Assembly (NCBI RefSeq): GCF_001423965.1
Contig: NZ_LMPV01000010.1
Span: 62,001-126,000, forward strand
DNA: 64,000 nt
Reading direction: 5' to 3'
DNA from: Exiguobacterium sp. Leaf196
GTDB lineage: Bacteria > Bacillota > Bacilli > Exiguobacteriales > Exiguobacteriaceae
The translations under genes and the position numbers were made by a program. Position 1 is the first letter of the stretch; each line of letters begins with the position of its first letter. Shown in pieces: positions 3,785 through 44,220 of the stretch. Below the pieces are notes generated by a model. That model did no database searches, was not told where the DNA came from, and saw only the letters and a program-made list of their open reading frames with translations.

Positions 3785-3808
3785 AAAGTTGTATAACTCA
3801 ATAATCCA

Positions 3809-3947
3809 GTTCTTCGGGGTAGGGTGAAAATCCCAACCGGCGGTGATGCGATCGATCGATCGACGAGCCCGCGACCCGTGATGTACGCATCATGGCTGAC
3901 TTGGTGAGATTCCAGGGCCGACGGTAAAGTCCGGATGGGAGAAGAAC
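3809..3947 (+). promoter_or_regulatory. FMN riboswitch (RFN element)
   Basis: Aptamer that binds flavin mononucleotide and represses riboflavin genes. The closing P1 helix is GTTCTTC (3809-3815) with GAAGAAC (3941-3947). Highly conserved RFN blocks are recognisable: GGGGTAGGGTGAAAATCCC, AACCGGCGGT, GAGCCCGCGACCC, and GATTCCAGGGCCGACGGTAA followed by AGTCCGGATGGGAGAAG. The variable arm contains a short GATC repeat (3851-3864). It is followed by an intrinsic terminator before ribD, indicating control by premature termination. Confidence 0.97.
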
Positions 3948-4057
3948 GAAACGACGCGATTCAAGCTGTTTTCTGAAAAAATGTTTTCAGGAGATGGTCT
4001 CTTTCTGCATGCGAAAAAGCAGAAGGCGAACCGTGTATTTCGTGAACCCTTCTATAC

Positions 4058-8870: not shown

Positions 8871-10229
8871 ATGGGAAATTCATTTAGTGACTGGATCAGT
8901 ACGGTGTCCAATCTTGTTTGGGGACCACCGTTACTTATTCTGTTGGTCGGTACGGGGATTTACTTGACGATTCGCTTAGGATTCATTCAAATTACCAAAC
9001 TACCGTATGCGCTGAAGCTCGCGTTTTCAAAGCATCAGGACGATAAGTCGGAAGGCGACATCAGTCACTTTCAAGCATTGATGACGGCACTGGCTGCGAC
9101 CGTCGGTACGGGGAATATCGTTGGTGTCGCAACCGCCGTCGTCCTCGGCGGACCGGGTGCGATCGTTTGGATGTGGTTGTCCGGTCTATTCGGGATGGCG
9201 ACGAAGTATGCGGAAGCAATCCTTGCCGTCAAGTACCGTGTCGTTGATGAAAATGGACAGATGGCAGGGGGGCCAATGTATTATCTCGAGCGTGGGCTGA
9301 AGCAGAAATGGCTGGGTGTCTTGTTTGCCGCATTCGCTTCAATCGCTGCGTTCGGGATCGGGAACGGGGTCCAGACGAATTCGGTCGCCCTCGCGATGAA
9401 ATCAACGTTCGATGTGCCACTTTACGTGACGGGGATCGTATTGATGGTACTGACAGGCGTCGTCATTCTTGGTGGGGTCAAATCAATCGGAAAAGTTGTC
9501 AGTTTGTTTGTTCCGTTTATGATTTTCTTCTATGTTGGAAGTGGATTACTGATTCTCGTCATGAACTATGACTTGATTCCAGGTGCGATTTCGACGATCT
9601 TCAGCAGCACGTTCTCAAGCGAAGCAATTACGGGTGGCGCGATCGGGGCGGCGATTCGTTATGGTGTCGCGCGTGGTGTCTTCTCAAATGAAGCGGGTCT
9701 TGGTTCAGCACCGATTGCAGCCGCTGCAGCGAAAACGGACTTCCCAGGACGTCAAGCGCTCGTTTCGATGACGCAGGTGTTTTTAGATACATTGGTCGTC
9801 TGTTCGATCACAGGTTTGACGCTCGTCATGGGAGGACAACTTGATACGAAGTTACAAGGCGTTGAATTGACGACAGCAAGCTTCGAGGTCTTCCTCGGTC
9901 CTGCCGGAAAATACATCGTCACGATTGGACTCGTCATGTTTGCTTATTCGACTGTTCTTGGCTGGTCGTATTATGGCGAAAAATCAATCTATTATCTATT
10001 CGGTCAAAAATCGATTCTCCCATACCGTATCCTGTTCGTCTTAGTCGCCGGAGCGGGTGCGATGACGACGAACTTGAACATGGTCTGGGCGATTTCCGAT
10101 GTCTTCAATGGATTGATGGCGATTCCGAACTTAATCGGTTTGATTGGATTGTCCGGTGTCGTCATTGCTGAGACACGACTGTTCCGCGAACAGTTGAGAC
10201 GAGAAGAAGCGAATCGGAAAGTTTCGTAG
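8871..10229 (+). CDS. Sodium:alanine/glycine symporter family protein (AGCS)
   Basis: Predicted sodium-coupled amino acid importer of the alanine/glycine:cation symporter family (AlsT/GlnT-like), 452 residues with ~10-11 membrane segments. Family motifs: GTGNIVGVATAVVLGGPGAIVWMW, and the GGPMYYLERGL loop; a later ARGVFSNEAGLGSAPIAAAAA segment is typical. The substrate may be alanine, glycine or glutamine and cannot be resolved by eye. The GGGAGGT site is 7 bases before the ATG at 8871. Single-gene unit; the downstream gene is convergent. Confidence 0.93.
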   Translation: MGNSFSDWISTVSNLVWGPPLLILLVGTGIYLTIRLGFIQITKLPYALKLAFSKHQDDKSEGDISHFQALMTALAATVGTGNIVGVATAVVLGGPGAIVWMWLSGLFGMATKYAEAILAVKYRVVDENGQMAGGPMYYLERGLKQKWLGVLFAAFASIAAFGIGNGVQTNSVALAMKSTFDVPLYVTGIVLMVLTGVVILGGVKSIGKVVSLFVPFMIFFYVGSGLLILVMNYDLIPGAISTIFSSTFSSEAITGGAIGAAIRYGVARGVFSNEAGLGSAPIAAAAAKTDFPGRQALVSMTQVFLDTLVVCSITGLTLVMGGQLDTKLQGVELTTASFEVFLGPAGKYIVTIGLVMFAYSTVLGWSYYGEKSIYYLFGQKSILPYRILFVLVAGAGAMTTNLNMVWAISDVFNGLMAIPNLIGLIGLSGVVIAETRLFREQLRREEANRKVS

Positions 10230-10296
10230 AACATGCGAAAATGAAAGACTCGGAAGGAACTAGTGCTTAAAAATCATTTTTGAAAACGAATGACTT

Positions 10297-10367
10297 TGCC
10301 ATCCTCGCTTTCCCTGACAAAAGAATGTACCATGCTTTCTTTTCCTGTAGGAGTCGAGGAATAGGCA
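10297..10367. repeat. Structured intergenic repeat, short copy
   Basis: Shares the 3' core CTTTTCCTGTAGGAGTCG (10339-10356) with copies at ~31.9 and ~43.2 kb but lacks their central hairpin. Arms TGCC..CCTCG (10297-10307) and CGAGG..GGCA (10355-10367) are complementary to each other yet unlike the arms of the other copies. An inner AAAAGAA/TTCTTTT pairing replaces the larger internal stems. It lies between convergent genes. Confidence 0.65.
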
Positions 10368-10391
10368 TTCACATTCTATATCTATTCAACG

Positions 10392-10466: not shown

Positions 10467-12107
10467 TCACTTTTTACGATAAAGCATCAGTGATTCATAA
10501 GGTCGTAACGTTAAAGTGTACCCCTCTGTCTGCATCTGCTGATAATTATGAAGCAACACCGTATAGTCCGATCCGTCATGAGGTAACGTGAACGTCGTGT
10601 CCGTTCCGTAGAAATTCGAGACGACGAGTAATTCTTCTTCACTCGTTGCGCGTTCGTACGCCCAGAGTGATGGATCGTCCGGTGTCAACAGCCGGTATGA
10701 ACCGTTCGTGAGCACGTCATACTGTTTGCGGAGTTGAATCAACCGTTTGTAATGATGATAGACTGAATTAGGGTCTGCGACAGCAGCCTCGACATTGATT
10801 TGATCGTACGTCGGCGAGACCGGGATCCATGGCTCACTTGTACTAAAGCCACCGTTGACGGCGTCCGACCAAGGCATCGGTGTCCGCGCGTTATCGCGTG
10901 ATTTTTGACGGATCGCAGCGAGAATTGCTTCTTCCGATACGCCGTTGGTCCGTGCTTCTTGATAGGCATTCAATGTCTCGACATCACGGTAGTCGGACAG
11001 ATTCGTGAAGTCCGGATTCGGCATTCCGATCTCTTCTCCTTGGTAAATATACGGTGTACCTTGCAAGCCATGAAGCGTTGTCGCGAGCATCTTTGCACTC
11101 TCAACACGATACGCGACGTCGTCACCAAACCGGCTGACGACGCGGGGTTGGTCATGGTTACACCAAAAAATCGCGTTCCATGCTTGTCCGTTCATGCCAG
11201 TTTGCCAGTCGGAGAAAATTTGTTTCAACTGCTTGAAGTCAAACGGTGCAGCCGTCCATTTCTCACCGTTCGGATAATCGACCTTCAAGTGATGGAAGTT
11301 GAACGTCATCTTCAGTTCTTGATTTTCGAGCGAAGAATATTGAAGACAATGTTCAAGCGACGTCGACGACATCTCACCGACCGTCAAGAGATCGTGTCCG
11401 GCAAAAACGGATGCGTTCATCTCTTGCAAGTAGTCATGAATGTTTGGTCCGTCCGTATAGTACGCACGTCCGTCTCCCTCGGGATCATTGGGAAGCCCTG
11501 GCGTCTTCGAGATCAAGTTAATGACGTCGAGTCGGAAGCCGCTGACCCCTTTATCGCGCCAAAAGCGCATCATCGCGTAAACGTCTTCCCGGAGTCGGGG
11601 ATTTTCCCAGTTCAGGTCCGCTTGCGTCTTGTCGAACAGGTGCAAGTAGTACTTACCAGCTACCTCATCAAATGACCAAGCAGGACCGCCGAACTTCGAT
11701 ACCCAGTCGTTCGGCGTCTCGCGCCAAATGAAGTAATCGTGATAGGAACTGTCTGGATGACGTCCTTCTTCAAACCAAATATGTGACGTCGAGCAGTGAT
11801 TGACGACGATATCCATCATGACCGACAGACCACGTCGTTTTGTTTCTGCGAGTAACATCTCGAAATCATCCATCGTTCCATACGAGGGATCGATTGCGTA
11901 ATAGTCACTGACATCATATCCATTATCGTTTTGCGGTGAGGCATAGACCGGCGTCAACCACAGGTAATCGACACCAAGATCCGCCAGATAATCGAGTTTG
12001 GCCGTGACCCCGCGCAATGTACCGGTCGCTTTGCCCTCCGGACTATAAAAACTCTTCGGATAGATTTGATAAACGGCGGATTTGCGCCAATCGGTTGTCG
12101 TGATCAT
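10467..12107 (-). CDS. treA: Trehalose-6-phosphate hydrolase (alpha,alpha-phosphotrehalase)
   Basis: Cytoplasmic GH13 enzyme that splits trehalose 6-phosphate into glucose and glucose 6-phosphate; 546 residues. The conserved GH13 regions are visible: DIVVNHCS, GFRLDVINLI (nucleophile Asp), TVGEMSS (acid Glu), and FWCNHDQPR. The ATG at 12107 follows AAAGGTG with 8-base spacing; a GTG at 12116 lies within that site. It begins 21 bases after treP and is cotranscribed with it. Other GH13 oligo-1,6-glucosidases look similar, but the treP/treR context supports trehalose. Confidence 0.95.
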   Translation of the reverse strand: MITTTDWRKSAVYQIYPKSFYSPEGKATGTLRGVTAKLDYLADLGVDYLWLTPVYASPQNDNGYDVSDYYAIDPSYGTMDDFEMLLAETKRRGLSVMMDIVVNHCSTSHIWFEEGRHPDSSYHDYFIWRETPNDWVSKFGGPAWSFDEVAGKYYLHLFDKTQADLNWENPRLREDVYAMMRFWRDKGVSGFRLDVINLISKTPGLPNDPEGDGRAYYTDGPNIHDYLQEMNASVFAGHDLLTVGEMSSTSLEHCLQYSSLENQELKMTFNFHHLKVDYPNGEKWTAAPFDFKQLKQIFSDWQTGMNGQAWNAIFWCNHDQPRVVSRFGDDVAYRVESAKMLATTLHGLQGTPYIYQGEEIGMPNPDFTNLSDYRDVETLNAYQEARTNGVSEEAILAAIRQKSRDNARTPMPWSDAVNGGFSTSEPWIPVSPTYDQINVEAAVADPNSVYHHYKRLIQLRKQYDVLTNGSYRLLTPDDPSLWAYERATSEEELLVVSNFYGTDTTFTLPHDGSDYTVLLHNYQQMQTEGYTLTLRPYESLMLYRKK

Positions 12108-12128
12108 CAGATACACACCTTTCTGAAA

Positions 12129-31874: not shown

Positions 31875-32019
31875 GAATCGCTTGCATTCACTTGCTTTCC
31901 TCAAGCGAGACGTGAGCCGCGCCTCCTTCGTCTTTAGACGAGGAGTCGGATCTCACTTGTCTCTGACAGCACGAAAACTCGTGCTTTTTCCTGTAGGAGT
32001 CGCGTGATGTGAGCGATTC
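31875..32019. repeat. Structured intergenic repeat, full copy 1
   Basis: About 145 bases that can fold on themselves end to end. Outer arms begin GAATCGCT (31875) and end AGCGATTC (32019). Inside are GAGAC/GTCTC with CCTCCTTCGTC/GACGAGGAG, then AGCACGA/TCGTGCT (31968-31974, 31979-31985), and the core TTTTTCCTGTAGGAGTCG. The core and TGTCTCTGAC are shared with the copy at 43.2 kb; the arms and central stem are not. Confidence 0.75.
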
Positions 32020-42109: not shown

Positions 42110-43090
42110 ATGTTTTCAAGAGATATCGGAATCGACTTAGGGACGGCGAATGTCGTCATTCATGTAAAAGGTAGAGGCATTGTCCTCGATGAGCCATCGG
42201 TCGTCGCGATCGATAAGGCGACAGGCAAGATTCACGCGGTAGGGACAGAAGCACACTTGATGGTGGGCCGGACACCGGGAAACATCGTGGCCATTCGACC
42301 GCTTCAAGACGGCGTCATTGCTGATTTCGAAATGACAGAAGCGATGCTACGCCATTTCATCGATAAGATTGAGGTCCGTAAGATGTTCGGTGGAGTCCGC
42401 ATGTTGATTTGTACACCAGCAAGCATCACAACGGTCGAAGCAAAAGCGATTCGCCAAGCTGGTGAAAAATCAGGTGCGAAGACGGTCTTCCTCGAAGTCG
42501 AGCCGAAGGTCGCAGCAGTCGGTGCCGGTATGGACATTTGGATGCCAGCAGGGCACATGGTCATTGATATCGGTGGCGGAACGACGGATGTTGCTGTACT
42601 TTCAATGGGTGATATCGTTTGCGGTGAAACGATCAAAGTCGCAGGTGACCGGTTTGATCACGATATCATCCGCTCGATCAAGGATACGCATAAGTTGATC
42701 ATCGGGGAACGGACAGCGCAAGCCGTCAAGACGACGGTCGCGACGGTCTCAGAAGACGGACGTCGGGAACAGATGGATATTCGTGGACGTAATCTCGTGA
42801 CGGGCTTACCGCACAACATCACGGTGACATCAGAAGAGATGCATGAGGCACTCGCAGAAGCAGCAATGGAGATCGTCGAAGCAACGAAGCGTGTGCTCGA
42901 GAAGACACCACCAGAGCTTGCAGCGGACATCATCGACCGTGGCATCATCCTGACGGGTGGGGGCGCACTTCTTGACGGAATCGACCAGTTACTTGCAAAA
43001 GAACTCGGCCTACCAGTTCTGATTGCAGAAGATCCGATGTTATGTGTCGCACGCGGTACAGGGATCATGCTCGACAATCTTGGGAAGTAA
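42110..43090 (+). CDS. mbl: MreB-like actin homologue Mbl
   Basis: Cytoskeletal ATPase that guides lateral wall synthesis in rods; 326 residues. Phosphate loops RDIGIDLGTANVVIHVKG and DIGGGTTDVAVLSMGDI and the adenosine motif ILTGGGALLDGIDQLL are clear. AAAGGAGAG precedes the ATG. In B. subtilis spoIID, spoIIQ and spoIIID lie between murAA and mbl; here the two are adjacent. Mbl rather than MreB is chosen from the flhO-flhP neighbourhood. Confidence 0.94.
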   Translation: MFSRDIGIDLGTANVVIHVKGRGIVLDEPSVVAIDKATGKIHAVGTEAHLMVGRTPGNIVAIRPLQDGVIADFEMTEAMLRHFIDKIEVRKMFGGVRMLICTPASITTVEAKAIRQAGEKSGAKTVFLEVEPKVAAVGAGMDIWMPAGHMVIDIGGGTTDVAVLSMGDIVCGETIKVAGDRFDHDIIRSIKDTHKLIIGERTAQAVKTTVATVSEDGRREQMDIRGRNLVTGLPHNITVTSEEMHEALAEAAMEIVEATKRVLEKTPPELAADIIDRGIILTGGGALLDGIDQLLAKELGLPVLIAEDPMLCVARGTGIMLDNLGK

Positions 43091-43152: not shown

Positions 43153-43174
43153 TGGACAATGTTGAAGAAAAGAA

Positions 43175-43322
43175 AGGCTTGCCCCATTTGATCCGCTTTT
43201 CTCAGGCAAGACACAAACCCGTGTTCACTGTTCGTATAACAGTGAACACGGGTCTTGTTTGTCTCTGACGGCGCAAAAATTTGCACTTTTCCTGTAGGAG
43301 TCGGATTAATGGTAGCAAGCCT
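43175..43322. repeat. Structured intergenic repeat, full copy 2
   Basis: About 148 bases. Outer arms open with AGGCTTGC (43175-43182) and CCATT..GATCCG and close with CGGAT..AATGG and GCAAGCCT (43315-43322). The centre is a perfect 16-bp stem (43217-43232 with 43238-43253). The shared 3' core TGTCTCTGACGGCGCAAAA...CTTTTCCTGTAGGAGTCG follows. Lies between the convergent mbl and the secreted-protein gene. Confidence 0.78.
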
Positions 43323-43350
43323 CTTGTCATGTCTTCTTTTGAGCCTGTCC

Positions 43351-44220
43351 TTACTGCGTACTACGCATGAAAGCCTGGTAGGCTTCAAAATCATGATAGA
43401 CAATGGCACTTGGTGGCAACGAACTTGCCATCGTCTGATTAACGAGCTGATTTAGTTGCGTCCGTGTTTTGCCGTAGAACGTAATGTCCGGTGTTTCCGG
43501 AAGCTCCGTGAATTCGATAGCATACGATAAACGATATCCGTTACTCGCTGCATACAATGCATCCGTCATCGTGATGGCGCCAAGTCCGTTACCGCCACCG
43601 TAAACGGTCCGGTAACTCATCAACGTGACTTCGTCAGCGAGATCCATCGCCCATTCGCTGATGGAACGCCCACCTGCACCCTGTACGGTATGGAACCAGA
43701 ACGGGAGGAACAGCTGAAGCGGTAATCCTTCAGCAGATGCTTTTTCGCGGAAGGCGAGTAAGATGCGTTCGTAGGAGGCGATGACTCCTGGCTGGTCCGT
43801 CTCCCATTCCGGTAAGGCGTACGGTTCGAGATCGACACTGATACCGTCCGGATGACTGATCGTCTCCTGCTGATAGGTCGAGATCCAGGCTAGCGGATCC
43901 TCGACGTTCGGTCGAGCTGTCGTTCCTTCGTTTGTAATCCAGCGCGGCTGTCCGAACAGAAAGTAGACTTCGATTCCGACAGCATGCGCTTTTTCAACGA
44001 ACGTTCGGTAGAGAGTACGGTCACCCTCGACAGCGACATGCAGATAGACACGTTTCATCTGTCTGTTTGCCAGCTGATTGATCTTCGTTGAAATGGATTT
44101 GGCCTCTGGGATGGACCAGATGACCGTGTGACGAGTGACGGAAACGGCAGCTGAACTCTTGAGCGGTAGTCCGAATTGAAGCAACGATAGGCAGACTACG
44201 CTAATCAAAAAGCGTTTCAT
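43351..44220 (-). CDS. Secreted protein with TIM-barrel glycosidase-like features
   Basis: A 289-residue exported protein; signal peptide ends near SSAA (residue ~24). Alternating strands and helices with VYLHVAVEG, GIEVYFLFGQPRW, and DGISVDLEPYALPEW suggest a (beta/alpha)8 barrel; the D-x-E motif in SVDLEPY resembles a glycosidase or GH18-like active edge. Family not recognised with confidence. AAGGAGTG precedes the ATG. Transcribed divergently from the MFS gene. Its substrate is unknown; a cell-wall or polysaccharide role is a guess. Confidence 0.7.
   Translation of the reverse strand: MKRFLISVVCLSLLQFGLPLKSSAAVSVTRHTVIWSIPEAKSISTKINQLANRQMKRVYLHVAVEGDRTLYRTFVEKAHAVGIEVYFLFGQPRWITNEGTTARPNVEDPLAWISTYQQETISHPDGISVDLEPYALPEWETDQPGVIASYERILLAFREKASAEGLPLQLFLPFWFHTVQGAGGRSISEWAMDLADEVTLMSYRTVYGGGNGLGAITMTDALYAASNGYRLSYAIEFTELPETPDITFYGKTRTQLNQLVNQTMASSLPPSAIVYHDFEAYQAFMRSTQ

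Follow-up and report, generated by a model that had tools for sequence, protein, structure and literature searches.

The three structured repeats found within the window, i.e., the whole stretch of 64,000 nucleotides of Exiguobacterium sp. Leaf196 DNA analysed here, are members of an extensive family of small DNA hairpins that occurs in Exiguobacterium and other Bacillales. With a probability of roughly 0.6, these repeats are small non-autonomous mobile hairpins that have been inserted by hairpin replacement, a reaction that would be catalysed by a transposase of the IS1182 type. According to the mechanism proposed, a structure-recognising transposase of the IS1182 family, as published for IS1272, would excise a stem-loop already present, typically an intrinsic terminator closing a gene, and the element would take over its position. 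What remains of the old hairpin would be the outer portion of its stem and its A- and T-rich edges, such that the common core would end up inside self-complementary outer arms that are specific to each copy. Because the elements are themselves hairpins, those already resident would be replaceable in turn, in either orientation, and both arms and inner stems would later be reshaped by DNA template switching and short-repeat deletions.

Within the window, an 18-base core was located at positions 10339, 31985 and 43286, each time on the forward strand; the core of the main copy (31985) differs by a single base, with T replacing the first C. Only 0.04 matches are expected in shuffled sequence and three copies were reached in 0 of 100 shuffles, so that the sharing of a 3' core by three copies, which constituted the original prediction from the sequence, is real and beyond chance. 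Its description of two full copies bearing TGTCTCTGAC and a short hairpin likewise applies to those at 31.9 and 43.2 kb. In each copy, the core, bounded by CTTTCC (in the 43 kb copy, CTTTTC) and CCTGTAGGAGT, lies inside mutually pairing arms (Table 1). The two full copies carry both a long hairpin (P3) and a short one (P4) followed by a T-run, and the 10.3 kb copy is without P3. Window-type copies have approximately eight semi-conserved terminal bases, with the consensus TTCACTCG/CGAGTGAA, and no clear terminal repeat beyond these.

Table 1. Positions of the three repeat copies in the window and of the parts of the main copy, with matches to the covariance model R1.
Feature	Position	Strand	R1 match	Context or basis
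Main copy including arms	31875..32019	+	31878-32018, 116.5 bits	3' of UDP-GlcNAc 2-epimerase gene; sequence
Main copy, left outer arm GAATCGCTTGCATTCAC	31875..31891	+		Pairs with 32004-32019; compensatory changes in orthologs
Main copy, right outer arm GTGATGTGAGCGATTC	32004..32019	+		Pairs with left arm; compensatory changes in orthologs
Main copy, conserved core CTTTCC..GGAGT	31895..32000	+		Fold and alignment; contains P2, P3, P4
Main copy, P2	about 31897-31905 with 31990-31999	+		Fold and alignment
Main copy, P3 long hairpin	31907-31963	+		Fold and alignment
Main copy, P4 hairpin AGCACG..CGTGCT + TTTTT	31968..31989 (hairpin 31968-31985)	+		Intrinsic-terminator-like, consensus match only
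Second full copy	43172..43325	+	43179-43319	Between mreB-type gene (42110-43090) and convergent gene (43351-44220)
Short copy without P3	10288..10370	+	10291-10373, 22.7 bits	Between agcS (8871-10229) and convergent treC (10467-12116)

As described originally, the main copy begins 16 bases past mnaA (gene end, 31859; arm start, 31875), which encodes a non-hydrolysing UDP-GlcNAc 2-epimerase (TIGR00236). The accompanying statement that no ordinary terminator is seen there requires amendment, given that the inner P4 hairpin with its five T residues is itself terminator-like; a shuffled 900-base region gives 0.9 such matches on average. The lack of an ordinary terminator after mnaA would fit an element that has taken the place of the terminator, and P4 with its T-run may supply termination in lieu of the one lost. 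A search of the whole window against Rfam at the gathering cut-offs returned no family at the copies and an FMN riboswitch elsewhere as the sole match (3806-3950, forward strand, 117.7 bits; no relation to the repeats); when two of the three copies were searched permissively, every match fell below its own cut-off. No description of these repeats was found in the literature at the level of titles and the beginnings of abstracts.

The further copies that the original prediction implied were recovered in its own genome, among relatives and across the genus. Thirty-eight matches to a 14-base core pattern (up to two mismatches) were obtained in the genome of strain Leaf196 (G000), and 18 of the 30 inspected by eye were copies. 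Fifteen of these copies served to build the covariance model R1, which gave 20 matches in the same genome and at least 721 over the genus; these were found in all 19 Exiguobacterium genomes, with 12 to 130 in each, the high per-genome counts being lower bounds since the scan scored 150 candidates per genome. Two genomes, G010 and G014, are expanded, with at least 130 and 104 matches, respectively, compared to 12-49 in the others. Four copies lie in a row at one locus of G014 (L165:2202-3146), where Tandem Repeats Finder detected a period of 277 bp, 2.7 units and 97% matches, indicating amplification by tandem duplication.

The pattern TTTTCCTGTAGGAGT was present in 17 of the 18 Exiguobacterium genomes examined (none in G007), in 0 of 19 genomes of the sister genus and in 0 of 24 others, with no matches in controls. 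The looser CTTTTCCYGYRGGAGTC, the counts for which represent pattern matches as opposed to checked elements, occurred in 45 of 398 genomes of Bacilli, of which 27, including one from the sister genus, do not belong to Exiguobacterium, and again not in controls. Among the first 120 stretches listed by a separate scan with named genomes were Rossellomorea, Oceanobacillus, Gracilibacillus, Virgibacillus and others. The similarity to palindromes of other bacilli noted in the original prediction is borne out by the Bacillaceae elements CGCTTTCCGCGGG..CCCGCAGGAGTC (loci L196-L327), which by eye have the same ends, a similar P2 layout, a variable inner stem and paired outer arms. They are, however, shorter than the Exiguobacterium type and without P4, and many have outer repeats such as GTTGATT..AATCAAC. 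Copies of this type also exist within Exiguobacterium (L107, L136), beside the Exiguobacterium type. No shorter allele was found among 107 Bacillaceae-type elements, at loci chosen for containing an element. A further type of hairpin element, TTTTCCTGGGACAAGC..CCCTAGGAAGCGATG, was observed at L109:3062-3168, L192 and L193; at the last two, it occupies a site where relatives carry a B element.

Replacement of a hairpin was shown with the A units, a branch of the family in which the core lies within a unit of 186-241 bp with inverted ends AGGCTGACTCAAAA..TTTTGAGTCAGCC; 38 of these units are present in the loci examined, some of them orthologous. For ten A sites, the flanks were used as queries against eight genomes. 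Orthologs without the unit were found for every site, and a hairpin was lost at insertion in all ten cases; the 25 unit-less alleles examined have a hairpin where the unit sits. Measurements on a single allele for each site put the replaced stretch at 21-42 nt; none of its nine-mers recurred in the unit, and both junctions lay within 4 nt of the unit ends at nine of ten sites, the L108- site being 10-13 nt off. The replaced hairpin was clear at nine sites and weak at L123. On manual reading, the replaced hairpin is followed by four or more consecutive T at eight sites, and at L347 and L108- it is instead preceded by a run of four A, which is T on the other strand. For example, G015 has AAAATGACAGGATGGACC-GC-GGTCCATCCTGTCATTTTT where G001 has AAAATGACGAGGCCGACTC...GAGTCAGCTCCGTCATTTTT. 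At the L067 site, both states exist within one species, with the A unit in G061 and the terminator in G000.

Since unit-less A sites carry a hairpin, the flanks beside an A unit are the remains of the old, terminator-like one, with its A- and T-rich edges. Their pairing with their own partner is weak (11.9 versus 10.7 over 38 units, p 0.02), the bulk of the old stem having been lost. The puzzle of arms that differ between copies and yet pair within each is thereby largely solved for the A branch, and selection on structure, which had been one of two explanations offered originally, is not needed to account for them. The other, a mobile element whose flanks match each other, fared better: its notion that the element captures or copies its flanks came close, but the A units replaced an existing hairpin and did not duplicate anything. 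In many A units (e.g., L067, L088), the interval from the core to the right end contains another strong hairpin, AAGGGTGGCAGA..TCTGCCACCCTT.

The loss of the hairpin at A sites matches the stem-loop-replacing transposition published for IS1272 (PMC5678879, PMC4923244). IS1272, of the IS1182 family, is described as replacing stem-loops without target duplication (PMC5678879), and TnSha1 (3022 bp) and IS1272 as integrating into hairpins, five of seven of which were confirmed as terminators by RNA-seq; either orientation is reported possible at one target (PMC4923244). Within Exiguobacterium, an IS1182-family element with terminator-like flanks was found in G016 as 19 copies (L407-L425) of an 1835-bp insertion sequence (IS) with the ends GAGGCTGGGACATAAC. 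Over all 19 copies, the edges average 5.5 A of eight bases on the left and 5.2 T of eight on the right, compared to 2.8 A and 2.7 T per eight farther out, and at least four T residues are among the first eight at 16 of the 19 (exceptions: L416, L418 and L424). The flanks of this IS also pair better with their own partner (15.2 versus 11.8; 0 of 20000 permutations). Its insertion sites were probably terminators. Its transposase and that of an IS in G007 are both of the IS1182 family (NF033551; 413 and 391 bits, respectively, against a cut-off of 270). The one visible end of the G007 IS, GAGGGTGACTCAAAAGT, the other lying beyond the contig edge, matches the ends of the A-like units L172 and L173 of the same genome. 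An IS1182-type transposase may move the A units. Among the matches listed, no pair of A-unit ends at IS-like spacing with a transposase was recognised in G000, G001 or G016; of 19 genomes, 10 gave a match to the DUF772 domain and nine, some of them rich in A units, such as G001, gave none, and it was also unmatched in G061. The helper transposase is now absent, or was missed, in several genomes with A units.

Arms specific to each copy and a position at gene ends are features of the whole family. As counted with a simple ORF caller, 39 of 63 non-A copies lie between convergent genes and three between divergent ones, as against 15 and 59, respectively, of 193 element-free intergenic regions at the same loci. 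Enrichment of A and T just outside the arms is modest (T, p 0.006; A, p 0.018), and runs of at least four T are barely enriched there (9/40 versus 7/40). Turnover was apparent at four sites where relatives carry a different element, or a reversed one whose arms differ: the reversed state was found after mnaA, at 43 kb and at L002, and at the L004 site a B element stands against a D element. With the oppositely oriented copies at the 43 kb site, the tip of P3 is the same and arms and flanks differ; a simple inversion was considered, and either reinsertion or a larger rearrangement would fit.

No clean terminator-only allele was found for a window-type copy, the orthologous sites being occupied by elements, by remnants of deletions or by intergenic DNA that does not align. 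When eight genomes were searched for empty sites of nine non-A copies from G000, most sites were filled, and several of those examined proved to be remnants of deletions or to have a replaced intergenic region; a further nine such copies, from other genomes, gave filled sites, one-flank sites and one ambiguous case, L140, for which G003 has a plain terminator with the same outer stem and is possibly itself a remnant. At the L003 site (B type), the element-free allele in G016, G015 and G012 is not a hairpin. By eye, deletion remnants among orthologs are often joined at short repeats. After mnaA, G012 retains the outer stem, followed by a T-run, and hence elements may decay back into terminator-like hairpins. 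Extension of hairpin replacement to the window copies is nonetheless likely, and they would have arisen in the same way as the A units, given their position at gene ends, their site-specific outer arms, the modest A- and T-richness outside these arms and the swaps of elements at the same spot.

The principal alternative is that the repeats are structured cis-acting RNAs (bidirectional terminators, attenuators or stabilisers of mRNA 3' ends) maintained by selection on their fold, with their spread being secondary. Covariation of the stems is strong, as the original prediction of compensatory arms would have it: in an alignment of 118 R1 matches from 100 sources, 37 of 41 pairs changed on both sides, with a score of 0.398 compared to 0.159 in shuffles (0 of 500), and none of 500 shuffles reached any of the five observed covariation measures, each of which leans toward structure since the alignment was fitted to it. 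Sliding the pairing partner in the alignment destroys the pairing, and orthologs of the main copy after mnaA have both-side changes in arms and P4. For the arms themselves, 116 matches were retained following removal of two partial P3 matches, then thinned by flank similarity to 42, and to 41 after removal of one misaligned copy. Pairing of arms averaged 30.4 within a copy and 15.7 between copies, the own partner being best for 28 of 41, in agreement with the initial description of arms that are paired within and different between copies. Beyond the eight semi-conserved bases, the own partner was best for 21 of 40 (chance, 1/40 each; 0 of 20000 permutations), a set that omits the A representative and includes two A-like copies (L140:636 and L173).

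An RNA function would also be consistent with the terminator-like P4, which keeps its T-run, with the location of copies at gene ends, and with the orientation of non-A copies between tandem genes, which tends to follow the coding direction (15 versus 6). A units in such contexts lean the other way, however (4 versus 9), and their presence varies within a species, as at the L067 site. Selection that keeps an RNA fold would be expected to leave an excess of G-T over A-C mismatches on the core strand. With counts that are not independent, the copies being related, isolated arm mismatches on this strand were G-T in 10 and A-C in 25 cases (116 copies), or 1 and 7 (41 copies), and the corresponding values for the model columns were 54 and 54 in P1, 58 and 101 in P3, and 19 and 20 in P4. 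The exception is P2, with 122 G-T versus 14 A-C, and nearly all of the former reflect one closing T-G pair that is near-invariant (113/116) and may represent plain sequence conservation. Because G-T does not exceed A-C apart from this one conserved pair, the data do not favour selection on a core-strand RNA, and we consider the RNA explanation unlikely.

A second alternative holds that the repeats are old DNA repeats whose compensatory arms derive solely from template switching, with no hairpin-directed insertion of the window type. DNA template switching is described as homogenising arms and inverting spacers (PMC8604942; PMC7202029). In five copies, P3 was made a perfect palindrome by multi-base tracts that depart from the commonest form on either side, i.e., on the left in L115, L124 and the 43 kb copy of the window, the orthologs of which in G001 and G005 are not perfect, and on the right in L098 and L125. 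These tracts look like DNA template switching and not like point-by-point compensation, and the process probably adds to the compensatory changes. As the sole explanation it has still less to recommend it than RNA selection, for it would leave unexplained both the hairpin replacement by A units and the occurrence of different arms in opposite orientation at the same site. Finally, the repeats might be REP-like and mobilised by a Y1 (RAYT/IS200) transposase, or else owe their movement to a reverse transcriptase. They are palindromic, intergenic and sometimes in inverted pairs, and three RVT_1 matches exist in G000, but both enzymes were dropped as movers, this origin being highly improbable when Y1_Tnp (PF01797) was found in nine of 19 genomes, G000 not among them, and RVT_1 in five, whereas element copies are in all 19.

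Among known systems, IS1272 and TnSha1 are, as published, like the A units in their hairpin targets, the whole or partial deletion of the stem-loop, the absence of target duplication and the use of both orientations. Such elements are autonomous, have sizes of about 1.8-3 kb, a range that includes IS1272, and belong to staphylococci, whereas the A units are numerous, 186-241 bp long and without a transposase gene, and possess a conserved branched core. Bacterial MITEs (miniature inverted-repeat transposable elements) resemble the repeats in being short, non-coding and present in many copies with terminal inverted repeats; unlike them, A units replace a hairpin instead of inserting with target duplication, and window copies have no clear terminal repeat. 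REP/RAYT systems and REPINs are multi-copy intergenic palindromes too, but the repeats are larger than the 20-40 bp given for REPs (PMC3733652) and do not depend on a Y1 transposase. Intergenic structured repeats of Bacillus, viz. Bhal-1 of B. halodurans (PMC2267715) and bcr1 of B. cereus, can be set beside these repeats by their descriptions, and from its description Bhal-1 may belong to the same superfamily (PMC2267715). Overall, the original interpretation of the repeats is partly supported.

Paired arms that covary are ordinarily read as strong evidence of RNA function. An element that replaces hairpins gives paired, copy-specific flanks without any RNA function, and it can therefore mislead screens for RNA discovery. 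In a broader and tentative extension of the mobile-hairpin proposal, one that we regard as doubtful, the gene ends of Bacillales would harbour mobile hairpins that compete for terminator slots, with the branched core being recognised by its shape and not by a terminal repeat. Were this the case, any hairpin, whether native terminator or resident element, would constitute a replaceable slot, and terminators themselves would turn over as mobile DNA. The findings suggest that mobile DNA has a standing target in intrinsic terminators and that, within a single species, a gene can trade its terminator for a portable one, the effect of which on read-through is directly testable.
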